Assembly (NCBI GenBank): GCA_009760855.2
Contig: WPIO01000014.1
Span: 2,905,501-2,969,500 of the forward strand
Length of the DNA stretch: 64,000 nt
Reading direction: 5' to 3'
From: Cristatella mucedo
Lineage: Eukaryota > Bryozoa > Phylactolaemata > Cristatellidae
The notes under the pieces are model-generated. The model ran no database searches. It was given only the letters and a program-made list of their open reading frames with translations, and was not told the origin of the DNA. Below are positions 569 through 62,800 of this stretch, in pieces (within the stretch, counting starts at the first letter, position 1; each line of letters begins with the position of its first letter). The translations under genes were made by a program, and so were the position numbers.

Positions 569-25985
<25,417 letters not shown>

Positions 25986-29242: not shown

Positions 29243-29915
29243 GCTTACAGCCGGTGCAAAACTCTGCAGCTTGCTTGTCTGCGGCAGGCGTCACAGTTTC
29301 CAAAACACACCACTTGTCGCCAATCTGCACTGGCTACCAGTCAAACAATTCATCGACTTCAAGGTTCTGTCACTCACCTTTAGGTCTCTTTATCCTTTGG
29401 CTCCAGAAAGAGCTAGGATGGTTGCCGGTTGATCAACGGATACAGAGCAAAGTTGTTACGCTGACCCACAAGGCCAGCCACGGCTTGGCTCCTTCGTACC
29501 TAGCTGAACTGCTGTACCAGTTTCAGCCTGTTCGCGCCCTCAGGTTCTGTGTGGACAATAAATTAGCTGTTCCATTCCTCCGCTTAAAGACAGTTGGTGA
29601 CAGAAGCTTTAGCTCCGCAGGTCCTAAACTGTATAACTCGCTTCGACAATTCTTACGCAACGACATCTACTCTCCAAGTGCCGACTATGGCACATCTTTT
29701 TTAGCGGTCCTGAACTGCTACTTCTATGCTACTCACTACCTCAACTGCTCTCCTAACTCAGCTATGCTTCCCACTTTCTCTTTGTTGCGAGAGACGAAGT
29801 CTGTTGGGTACCGAATGCGTACCGAAAGCCGCTTAGGCTGTGAGTGAGCTATACAAAACTCTACTGCGTAACACCCATATGGTCTTTATGACTTTGTGGA
29901 GTTACAGACGGAGAT
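29243..29915 (+). mobile_element. 5'-truncated LINE copy
   Basis: The C-terminal ORF region is open for nearly 200 codons in one frame: ELGWLPVDQRIQSKVVTLTH, SYLAELLYQFQPVRALRFCV and VGDRSFSSAGPKLYNSLRQF. The first 40 codons are in a shifted frame (LHWLPVKQFIDFKVLSLTF is read at 29,320), so two near-duplicate ORF pieces are joined. It ends in the family 3' UTR. Confidence 0.8.
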
Positions 29916-29949
29916 TCATTGCATTACATCAGTTATAATCCCTCACCGG

Positions 29950-31929: not shown

Positions 31930-33185
31930 GATCGATAAATCAAAGCAGACGACAAGAAATATAACATGCATTAGTTGCCTGACGCTATGCTGTGTCAAAG
32001 GATTAGCTAATGAACACAGGTGAGGCACATCCATTAATGGCGAGGCGGTGCTCTAATTACAACCTCAGAAGCTGCATGCTCACACAATGCAGCTATTTCA
32101 AGATGCTTTCTAAGTCTGCGGCAAAGCTTATATGGTGGCGGCGGCTAGAAGCCAGCGACAGCTAGACGGCGGCGCCGCGGCGGCGCTGGCCCCGCTGCAG
32201 CGCGGGCGCCGCTGCAGGCGCGTTCCTTTGATTCCGGACGCCTCGGTTCGTTTACTAGCTCACAGCGTTGAGCTGCGGTTGGCCAACCGCGCCGCACTCG
32301 TTATTCCTTGAGGGCTGCAGCTGGTCTCCGAAAATGTGGCTGAAGCTCAGAGGGCCGGGTCGCTTCGCTATGCATGAATGGATATTTAGCTGGCGAACCG
32401 GCAGCGCACGGCCTCTCGTCACCTGTTCGGCAGCCGACAAGTGCCCAGTTTGAGCGAGAGTCAAAACTGTCGTCTGAAATTCTACTCTGTATGGAAGGCG
32501 AACGCTGCGCCACGAACGAGGGGAGAAATATTTAACCGCGTTCGAAAGAACTCATCTCATTGCTCCATCTTGAAAGGGCGTGTGCTGATGATATGTTGGA
32601 ATGGCTAGCGAGAAGGTCCTCATCTGGCGCCTTGGCCTAGATTCCTTCCGCAGGAAGTTCTCGACGAGATTGGATGCGTATCCCGGCGGTCGAAGAAGCT
32701 ACGCAGCTAGTCTGAGGCCTATACTCCTAGAGTGGAGCCTGTGGGACGCTGGCACTCGTGGAACTCGACTAGTCAATGTACACGTTTGTGTGCGGCGTCA
32801 TCTTGCGCCCCATGTAGTTTTGTTATGTGTAGGATTTCCACTGTGGTATTGACTCACACCCCTGCGTAGGTCACGCATTTGCATTGTAACATGTCGTGTA
32901 CCCGTGCGATCTCTCTTGCCACGCTATGCCGAGAGCGTCACGCGTAGCGACCAAGACCTGCCACAACTGGAGTGGGAAGTCCTACTGGTAATAGCCTCCT
33001 ACCGCCTAGCCTGGGTTACAGCTGTGCTGCAAGGCCCTCGCCGCGAACTTACGAGGAACGCGGTGGCACCCGCTCACTGCTTAGCCAAGCCACTGCCGCA
33101 TCTTAGGGACCATTAATCGCGCGAAGGGCGCCCCAGTTCAATTCCGGAAGCCGTGGCACACCGGCCAAAGCTACAGGTCAATCCA
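31930..33185. other. GC-rich spacer with no recognised gene
   Basis: Includes a dense CG block at 32,150-32,230 ('gcggcgccgcggcggcgctg'). Frames of 60-80 codons are open on both strands, as expected for GC-rich DNA. A promoter/CpG-island role for a neighbouring gene is possible but unsupported by motifs. Confidence 0.3.
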
Positions 33186-33191
33186 CTACGG

Positions 33192-33377
33192 CTGTGGTTC
33201 TCAACCTTCCTATTGCCGCAACCTTTGAAAACAGTTTCTCATTTTTTGACGACCCCAACCACGAAATTATTTTGTGCAAAATGTAGAAATGCATGTTTTT
33301 ATATTGTCTTAGACGAGCCCTGTGAAAGTTTCATTCGACCCAAAAAGAGGTCGCGACCCACAAGTTGAGAACCGCTT
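33192..33377. mobile_element. SPIN-like hAT miniature element (MITE)
   Basis: 186 bp. The ends are inverted repeats: 'gtggttctcaacctt' at the left and 'aagttgagaaccgct' at the right. Internal phrases 'gaccccaaccacgaaatt' and 'aagaggtcgcgacccaca' match, from memory, the non-autonomous SPIN family described in tetrapods and a few invertebrates. The 8-bp flanks 'cactacgg' and 'cgctatag' agree at 5 of 8 positions, all differences being transitions, as expected for an aged hAT target duplication. Confidence 0.85.
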
Positions 33378-33387
33378 CGCTATAGTT

Positions 33388-34015
33388 CCTTAGTTGTTTC
33401 TCGGCTTGATTGTGATTCCCTTCGGCTGGGCTACCGAAGAAAGCAACTAGGCCAATGCAGCTGGCTATGAATATGGCTGCAAGGCTAGTCTTCAAGTCCC
33501 AGAGGTTTGAGCACGTGCTTCCTTTGCTAAAAGAGCTAGGATGGATGCCAGTTGAGCAACAGATGCAAGGCCCGCCACGGCTTGGCTCCTTCGTACCTAG
33601 CTGAACTGTTGCACCAGTTTCAACTTCTTCACACCCTCAGGTCCTGTGTGGACAATGAATTAGCTTTTCTATTTCTCCGCTTAAAGACCGTTGGCGACAG
33701 AAGCATAAGCTCTGTAGGTCCTAGACTATGGAACTCGCTTTAACAATTCTTACGCAACGACAACTACTCCCCTACTGCCGACTATGGCACATCCTATTCA
33801 GCGGCCCTGAGCTGCTACTTCCATGCTACTCACTACCTCAACTGCTCTCCTGACTCTGCTATGCTTCCCACTTTCTCTTTGTTGCGCGAGACGGAGTCTG
33901 TTGGCTACCGAATGCGTACCGAAAGCCGCTTAGGCTGTTTGTGCGCTATCCAAAACTCTCCTGCGTAACACCCGCATAGTCTTCATGACTTTGTGGAGTT
34001 ACAGACGGAGATACA
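33388..34015 (+). mobile_element. 5'-truncated LINE copy
   Basis: Reads HQFQLLHTLRSCVDNELAF and VGDRSISSVGPRLWNSL with a frameshift before them, then the family 3' UTR ending 'cagacggagatacat'. It lies 10 bp after the SPIN-like element. Confidence 0.85.
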
Positions 34016-34019
34016 TATT

Positions 34020-34302
34020 TGAAGGCTACGGCTTGGGCAGCGCCAGCTGCCGCTGCAGCCGCCGCCGCCTCTGCTCGGCCTCAAATATATGCTGCCAGCG
34101 CGGGCCGCTCACACTGTACTGTGTAAAGTGCTATAACGATCATAGGCATTGCTGCGTGCTCTCGATCTCGCCACAGCGGACGCTCGCACTGTGCTGCACT
34201 GCGCTGCTCTGATCAGCGTAGATGATGGTGCCGACCCGAGCGACTACGATCCAACGTCCTAGCCGGGCCCCGCCGGTGCCACTGCAGCAGCCTCCGCTGC
34301 CG

Positions 34303-34378
<76 letters not shown>

Positions 34379-34812: not shown

Positions 34813-34891
34813 TAGCATACATGGTCGCCGTCGCCAAATAAGCGCATGCGGATATAAAAGCGTTGTGTGTACACTTTCTTATATATTATAA

Positions 34892-35022
34892 TAATATAAT
34901 TTATTTATATAGCGCCCCAAGAGAACCTAATCTCTATTCAGGCGCTTCACATGTGCCTTGGGGCTCGAGCCCACGACCTTGGTGGGGGCGAGCACCTTAA
35001 CCGCTAGACCAAACCACTAAAA
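34892..35022 (-). repeat. tRNA-derived SINE
   Basis: Reverse complement has A-box-like 'taaggtgctcg', B-box-like 'gtgggctcgagcccc' and tail hairpin 'agattaggttctcttggggc'. Full length. Confidence 0.85.
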
Positions 35023-35689: not shown

Positions 35690-36150
35690 AAACCTCTACC
35701 TCTGATCCACAAGTCACGCGGCGGCTTGGCTCTTTCATACATAGCTTAGCTACTTCACCAGTTTCAGCATCCTCTTGCCCTCAGGTTCTATGAGGACAAT
35801 AGATTAGGTGCTTCATTCCTGTGCTTTGATAACTTCGGAAACAAATTATTTTGCTCTCTAGGTCGAAGATTGTGAAACTCACTGCCACAGTTCTTATGAA
35901 ACGTGATTACTCTCCCGTTAACGACTGTAGCACATCCTATCTAGCCTTACTGTACGACTACTTCCATGCTAATCACTACTGGGAAAGCCCTCTTGACTCA
36001 GCAATGGGTCTCACTTTCTCTTTGTTACATGTGATGAATAATATTGACTACCGCATGCGTACCCGTATGCCGATAAGGCTTTGACTGGGCTACAGAAAAC
36101 TCTGTGTAACTATCAGTTGCGCTTGTGGCTTTGTAGAGTTACAGGCGAAA
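35690..36150 (+). mobile_element. Diverged, 5'-truncated LINE copy
   Basis: Same family as 39,360 but older: 'ggcggcttggctctttcata', 'ctcaggttctatgaggacaa' and a decayed 3' UTR with 'gctttgtagagttacaggcg'. Confidence 0.75.
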
Positions 36151-36159
36151 AAACAGTAC

Positions 36160-39359: not shown

Positions 39360-39906
39360 GTTTACGTTTTCCCTCAGACTCTGCCTTTGTGGAAGCGACT
39401 CCTGGGGCTTAACCCTTCAACGGGGCTGAATGCTAAAGTTCTTACGCTGACCCACAAGGCCAGCCACGGCTTGGCTCCTCCATACCTAGCTGAACTGCTG
39501 CATCATGTTCAGCCTGTTCGCGCCCTCCGGTCCTGTGTGGACAATAAATAAGCTGTTCTATTCCTCCGCTTAAAGACAGTTGGCGACAGAAGCTTTAGCT
39601 CTGCAGGTCCTAGACTGTGGAACTCGCTTCCACAATTCTTACGCAACGCCAACTACTCCCCTACTGCCGACTATGGCACATCCTTTTCAGCGGTCCTGAG
39701 CTGCTACTTTTATGCAACTCACTACCTCAACTGCTCTCCTGACTCTGCTATGCTTCCCACTTTCTCTTTGTTGCATGAGACGAAGTCTGTTGGCTACCGA
39801 ATGCGTACTGAAAGCCGCTTAGGCAGTGAGTGCGCTATACAAAACTCTCTTGCGTAACACCCGCATGGTCTTTATGACTTTGTGGAGTTACAGACGGAGA
39901 TACATT
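39360..39906 (+). mobile_element. 5'-truncated LINE copy
   Basis: Young-looking copy: 'cacggcttggctcctcca', the region coding VGDRSFSSAGPRLWNSLPQF and a well-kept 3' UTR ending 'tacagacggagatacatt'. A stop replaces a leucine codon in the DNKLAV motif. Confidence 0.85.
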
Positions 39907-41617: not shown

Positions 41618-59287
<17,670 letters not shown>

Positions 59288-61294: not shown

Positions 61295-61542
<248 letters not shown>

Positions 61543-62228: not shown

Positions 62229-62362
62229 GAGTTATTTTGGTCCAGTGGTTACGGTGCTCGCCCCGACCAAGGTCTGGCTGAGGTCGTGGGCTCGAGCCCC
62301 GAGGCATATGTGAAACGCCTGAATAGAGATTAAGTTCTCTTGGGGCGCTATACAAATTATTT
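62229..62362 (+). repeat. tRNA-derived SINE, well preserved
   Basis: 'ccagtggttacggtgctcg', 'gtcgtgggctcgagcccc', 'aacgcctgaatagagattaa' and 'gttctcttggggcgctatac' followed by A/T-rich end. It is the best copy for a consensus. Confidence 0.88.
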
Positions 62363-62369
62363 ATATATG

Positions 62370-62800
62370 TATATACTCTAAATCGTAAGTCATTTATCGT
62401 AATTCCTAAATCAGAAACCCTGAATTTTATATTCGAAGATGAAAAGATATTTGTTAATCTGTTAATATGATAATCTGTTAAAGATAATGTTTTTAATATA
62501 CAGTATATACGTGTTTTGCGAAGCCTCTACACCTAAAAAGTCATTTGAATATCGTTATTATTTCGATTGTCATAGTGGCCATCGAAAGATCCACGTCACT
62601 ATTCACAGATTTGCATCTTAGTATGGTATCCAAAAGGCGATCGCGCCTTTTACACCTTGATGCTTAAGGCCCCTATAAAGCCCCTAGCTTGACCTTTGAT
62701 CAAAGAGAACTCAGTCATGCCTCTATTTTGCCCTAGGCGATCCAGTGGCTCGCAGCAGATCAGCGTTTGCTAAGGAAATTCTTTCTTTGACCACAAAAGT
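62370..62800. other. Intron, nothing recognised
   Basis: Nothing recognised. Confidence 0.4.

Follow-up and report, generated by a model that had tools for sequence, protein, structure and literature searches.

The element at positions 33192 to 33377 of the window (the whole 64,000-base stretch of DNA that was analysed, lying on contig C55) is very probably a decayed copy of a SPIN-type MITE family (hAT, Buster group) that entered a lophotrochozoan-like genome horizontally. This reading is carried by a multi-copy family with well-defined ends and target-site duplications, by the likeness of its internal blocks to a presumed mammalian SPIN sequence and by the invertebrate character of the host mitochondrion.

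Results

The element and its surroundings

The features of the site are as follows.

33192..33377, + strand: aged copy of a hAT MITE, very probably of SPIN type, differing from the family consensus by 15.6% (K2P 0.175)
33192..33206, + strand: left terminal inverted repeat, CTGTGGTTCTCAACC; consensus CAGTGGTTCTCAACC
33363..33377, + strand: right terminal inverted repeat, AGTTGAGAACCGCTT; consensus GGTTGAGAACCGCTG
33184..33191, + strand: left putative target-site duplication, CACTACGG, with a TA centre; not significant for this copy alone
33378..33385, + strand: right putative target-site duplication, CGCTATAG, with a TA centre; not significant for this copy alone
33382..34016, + strand: 3' part of a LINE-like repeat adjoining the element on the right, recognised by eye in the sequence and in its translation, and from known motifs

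The initial annotation had described 186 bp with inverted ends and GGTCGCGACCCA inside, and this description was borne out. The inverted arms GGTTCTCAAC (33196-33205) and GTTGAGAACC (33364-33373) are 10 bp long and 100% complementary, GGTCGCGACCCA occupies 33349-33360, and the boundaries 33192 and 33377 coincide with the ends of the family (consensus CAGTGG...CCGCTG). The element is a real, aged hAT MITE. Its divergence from the consensus comprises 13 transitions and 16 transversions. No second SPIN copy was found in the 64-kb window, where the next-best match had E = 0.39. As an old fossil, the window copy shows nothing that points to a present function.

Related copies of the LINE-like repeat on the right lie elsewhere in the window, at 21268-21914, 29469-29919, 39455-39905 and 2349-2731, with one of 69% at 35710-36155. 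An empty site was sought by comparing the joined flanks with these LINE-like copies; the right flank aligned, the left gave only a weak extension of ~20 bp, and no paralogous empty site emerged. Since the right-hand repeat is not resumed in the left flank beyond this extension, the site is possibly rearranged: the element may have been inserted at the truncated 5' end of a LINE-like copy, or the left side may have been rearranged later.

The window as a whole has a GC content of 43% and a CpG observed/expected ratio of 0.81. It also holds a tRNA-like SINE family of ~140 bp (89-230, 62230-62380, 50620-50765 and 34880-35020) whose copies are 80-89% alike; the tRNA likeness was judged by eye, and ARAGORN called no tRNA gene. 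Three pairs of long repeats (7146-8545/53697-55072, 5311-6304/48358-49374 and 2732-3613/47201-48077), 0.9-1.4 kb in length and 81-94% identical, occur twice in the same order and may represent either a single large element or a segmental duplication of long ago. Long microsatellites are found at 61298-61541, where (CT)122 runs without a mismatch, at 52208-52370, (TGC)54, and at 34290-34377, (GCC)29. Ten long open reading frames of the window gave nothing in Pfam at E <= 0.01, and Rfam and tRNA scans of the 64 kb returned no matches.

A family across the genome

The genome searched comprises 572,011,866 bases in 688 contigs. With the element as query, 1588 first-look candidates were obtained, and the 40 that were scored all matched over nearly the full length (E <= 5.6e-43) and were spread over 29 contigs, which argues that the window element is not a chance arrangement. 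The copy number is at least 40 and, from the number of first-look candidates, probably many hundred. Short, non-coding, numerous and uniform in length, the family has the properties of a MITE.

The 39 copies outside the window, 81-85% identical to the window copy, were extracted with 400 bp on either side (mean GC of copies plus flanks, 46%) and all aligned. The resulting consensus is 187 bp long, starts with CAGTGGTTCTCAACCTTCCTAATGCCGCGACCC, ends with GGTCGCGACCCACAGGTTGAGAACCGCTG and has inverted ends of 15 bp. Divergence from it averages 6.2% (K2P 0.065, or 0.056 without CpG sites), a mean taken over the copies most like the window copy and not over a random sample, and hence not a random-sample age. 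The mean pairwise difference of the 39 copies (0.114) is close to twice their mean distance to the consensus (0.123), the star-like pattern expected of a burst. All 39 carry private mutations, and a single site divides them by an extra C, present in 21 and absent in 18.

Target-site duplications

An aged 8-bp target duplication had also been reported in the initial annotation. For the family this proved correct: the flanking 8-mers of the 39 copies match at a mean of 6.28 of 8 positions, against 3.64 in 2000 swapped pairs, and at least six positions agree in 30 of the 39 copies as compared with 8.35% of swapped pairs, the other nine copies falling below that level. A TA centre is found in 35 of 39 left flanks, with the consensus CTCTAGAG, and in 29 of 39 right flanks. 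For the window copy alone, however, the claim did not reach significance. Its flanks CACTACGG and CGCTATAG share 5 of 8 positions, a level reached or exceeded by 33% of unrelated TA-centred flank pairs (n = 989). A target duplication at the window copy itself is plausible, and it is the family that demonstrates one.

The nnnTAnnn form is that described for the target duplications of TcBuster, and SPIN has been assigned to the Buster family (PMC3499496). The duplications of the present family have this Buster-group form. TcBuster of Tribolium, a member of the Buster group of hAT elements, shares with the MITE family the 8-bp nnnTAnnn duplications; it differs in being autonomous and having a transposase, which the MITE is too short to encode.

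Identity with SPIN

Comparisons were made with a sequence that we take to be the mouse SPIN/URR1 MITE; this reference does not come from a database, which is the main weakness of the SPIN identity. Two further sequences, presumably those of MER20 and MER5A, served as references for unrelated hAT MITEs with similar ends. In the left block the family consensus shares 79 of 81 positions with the presumed SPIN/URR1 sequence, and in the right block all 85 (164/166 in total), with scores of 152 and 170 against maxima of 30 and 26 in 500 simple shuffles. The window copy agrees at 67/81 and 70/83 positions, respectively. Judged against this presumed reference, the likeness to SPIN appears to span both subterminal blocks, 166 bp together, and only a short core differs: between the blocks the present family has a core of about TGTGCAAAATGTGGAAATGC, which is presumably absent from the mouse element. 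The two elements would thus share ends, both subterminal blocks and the 8-bp TA-centred duplication of the Buster group, and would differ in this core and in the present host being an invertebrate. Six stretches of the consensus, searched for in the literature, gave no occurrence, and the identity with SPIN rests on the presumed reference.

A common end can also be had without any special link to SPIN, and the family might be a hAT-Charlie or Buster MITE unrelated to SPIN, sharing with it no more than the terminus CAGTGGTTCTCAACC. This end motif is common to other hAT families, further hAT families do occur in the same genome, and at the left end the consensus is matched at 15/15 positions by the presumed MER20 sequence and at 16/17 by that of MER5A. 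The likeness of MER20 and MER5A to the consensus, however, extends over only 15-20 bp at the ends; its internal blocks do not align with either of them, whereas they match the presumed SPIN sequence with scores far above those of shuffles. With all three references being presumed sequences, we regard an unrelated family with shared ends as very unlikely and reject it on the internal identity. Likeness confined to the ends, as among unrelated hAT families, had been named beforehand as evidence against SPIN; the alignment to the presumed reference sequences instead supports the SPIN-like identity that was first proposed.

Autonomous source and other hAT families

A search for the autonomous transposase, as suggested in the initial annotation, recovered other hAT families and no SPIN transposase in the loci read. 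None of these loci held an autonomous SPIN, in a search that was not exhaustive and in which many loci cover only the 3' side of the transposase. For the Pfam hAT dimerisation domain, 150 of 766 candidates were scored and 138 matches obtained. SPIN ends were found at none of 30 loci of a young hAT family (described below) and at none of 20 loci from the ~75 weaker hAT matches (~1.2 kb each, on the transposase 3' side), two of which (L081 and L085) are fragments of the young family. DUF4371 gave 46 matches, with 150 of 237 candidates scored, and the two loci read belong to one different family. A protein that we take to be TcBuster yielded 69 scored places among 890 candidates, at 28-34% identity. 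Six of the loci read here, together with the two DUF4371 loci, make eight TcBuster-like loci; SPIN ends were seen in none of them (0/8), and the eight are members of one other family, ~2.7 kb long, whose ends are CAGGGGTGTCCAAC. A PDB search with a hAT protein from this genome returned a single irrelevant match (E = 0.45).

Two of these families are of interest in their own right. The young hAT family (L048-L077, on many contigs) accounts for ~60 of the 138 domain matches, with practically equal scores. Several members have open frames of ~640 aa, and one copy is ~99% identical over ~2.2 kb to most of 29 others; the family looks recently or still active. The ~2.7-kb TcBuster-related family (L103-L110) shows ~30-32% identity to the presumed TcBuster protein, and the eight copies compared are 93-96% identical in pairwise comparison. 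This CAGGGGTGTCCAAC-ended family is a further candidate for recent arrival. An internal stop is lacking in 4 of the 69 TcBuster matches, not all of which are assigned to this family.

The host and its mitochondrion

COX1 on the 21,008-base contig C688 has AGA/AGG where serine and AAA where lysine is expected, the expected residues being as we take them to be. This usage indicates the invertebrate mitochondrial code (code 5) and, with it, an invertebrate host. The other mitochondrial genes were named by inspection of their translations, and the tRNAs are ARAGORN calls, some of them overlapping. One strand carries cox3-K-A-N-atp6-cox1-I-nad3, then nad1, nad6-cob-S(UCN) and nad4L-nad4-H-nad5-F; P and T were called on the opposite strand, where cox2 and nad2 also lie.

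This arrangement fits the table for Lineus viridis in the runs cox3-K-A, N, I-nad3, nad6-cob-S and nad4L-nad4-H-nad5 and in the reversed P/T, whereas in L. viridis atp6 and cox1 are placed elsewhere and the main strand also carries cox2 and nad2 (PMC2728741). The same paper describes the nemertean order as most like that of a brachiopod, with protein and rRNA genes in an order identical to that of some gastropods (PMC2728741). The host is likely a lophotrochozoan, its gene order recalling nemerteans and brachiopods as much as molluscs. A search of the genome for the mollusc haemocyanin family, run without a positive control, gave no match.

The mitochondrial contig (loci L098 and L100-L102) is 21 kb long with 44.5% GC and has protein genes on both strands. 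A stretch of ~2.1 kb, taking in part of nad3 and tRNA calls close to it, is duplicated in tandem. Five further COX1 matches lie off this contig, on C166 (L099), C83 (two), C549 and C299. Four are partial by more than half of the profile and three have an internal TAA or TAG; they look like mitochondrial insertions.

Discussion

Near-identity of a non-coding element between a mammal and an invertebrate points to horizontal transfer. The suggestion that the window element is a trace of such transfer is supported by the near-identity of the consensus to the presumed mammalian SPIN sequence, together with the invertebrate mitochondrial code of the host. Ancient vertical inheritance from the common ancestor of mammals and the host, without transfer, would agree with the fact that some copies are quite diverged, the window copy at 15.6% being an example. 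Mammals and the host diverged over 500 million years ago, however, and over such a span a non-coding element would not retain 164 of 166 positions when its copies in a single genome are ~11% apart from each other; we give this explanation hardly any credence.

Foreign DNA in the assembly, from a mammal or another contaminant, might likewise mimic a native family. Against this stand the spread of the 40 places over 29 contigs, the private mutations of all 39 copies and the separate, nearly matching target duplications that flank 30 of them, as well as the core TGTGCAAAATGTGGAAATGC, presumably absent from the mouse element, and the position of the window copy beside a repeat that recurs within the same window. 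Contamination is accordingly improbable in the extreme. A viral or bacterial carrier was also considered: viral contigs were searched for three exact patterns and prokaryote contigs for two, with no match to any, which is weak evidence in both collections, an exact match being required and animal genomes lying outside them.

The preferred reading is thus horizontal entry of a SPIN-type element, for which the most likely history is the following. An autonomous SPIN would have entered the lineage from another animal, and a Buster-type transposase would have recognised the ends and subterminal blocks of a 187-bp derivative. This derivative, moved by cut and paste, may have given rise to a burst of copies, after which the source element would have died out and the copies drifted.

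The SPIN kind is already known in invertebrates, Lymnaea among them, and the present host may be a new one. In Biomphalaria glabrata, a SPIN-like hAT with ~1,000 copies and significant identity to SPIN has been described, and no intact transposases were detected among the DNA transposons of that genome (PMC5440852). The Biomphalaria element resembles the present family, by description only, in being multi-copy in a lophotrochozoan with no intact transposase reported. Rhodnius prolixus harbours SPIN, OC1, hAT1 and ET elements, for which horizontal transfer with vertebrates has been proposed (PMC11614815). It is comparable in that the host is an invertebrate and horizontal transfer is invoked (PMC11614815). 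Rhodnius differs in being an insect that feeds on blood and is ecologically connected with tetrapods; for the present host no connection of this sort is known. No report of SPIN in nemerteans or brachiopods was found among the titles and abstract openings listed by the literature searches, which covered few subscription papers. It is conceivable, at somewhat less than even chances, that SPIN has reached a lophotrochozoan lineage beyond the reported snails and blood-feeders, possibly in a different phylum, with no obvious parasite link to tetrapods.

Few DNA transposons show a passage between remotely related animals as clearly as SPIN does. A further invertebrate host, carrying at least 40 and probably many hundred copies with a consensus that has hardly changed, would broaden the range of hosts of SPIN and would bear on the routes by which it travels, be they parasites, viruses or diet. 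If the host lies outside the reported groups, models that invoke blood-feeding or snail parasites alone would need an additional route.
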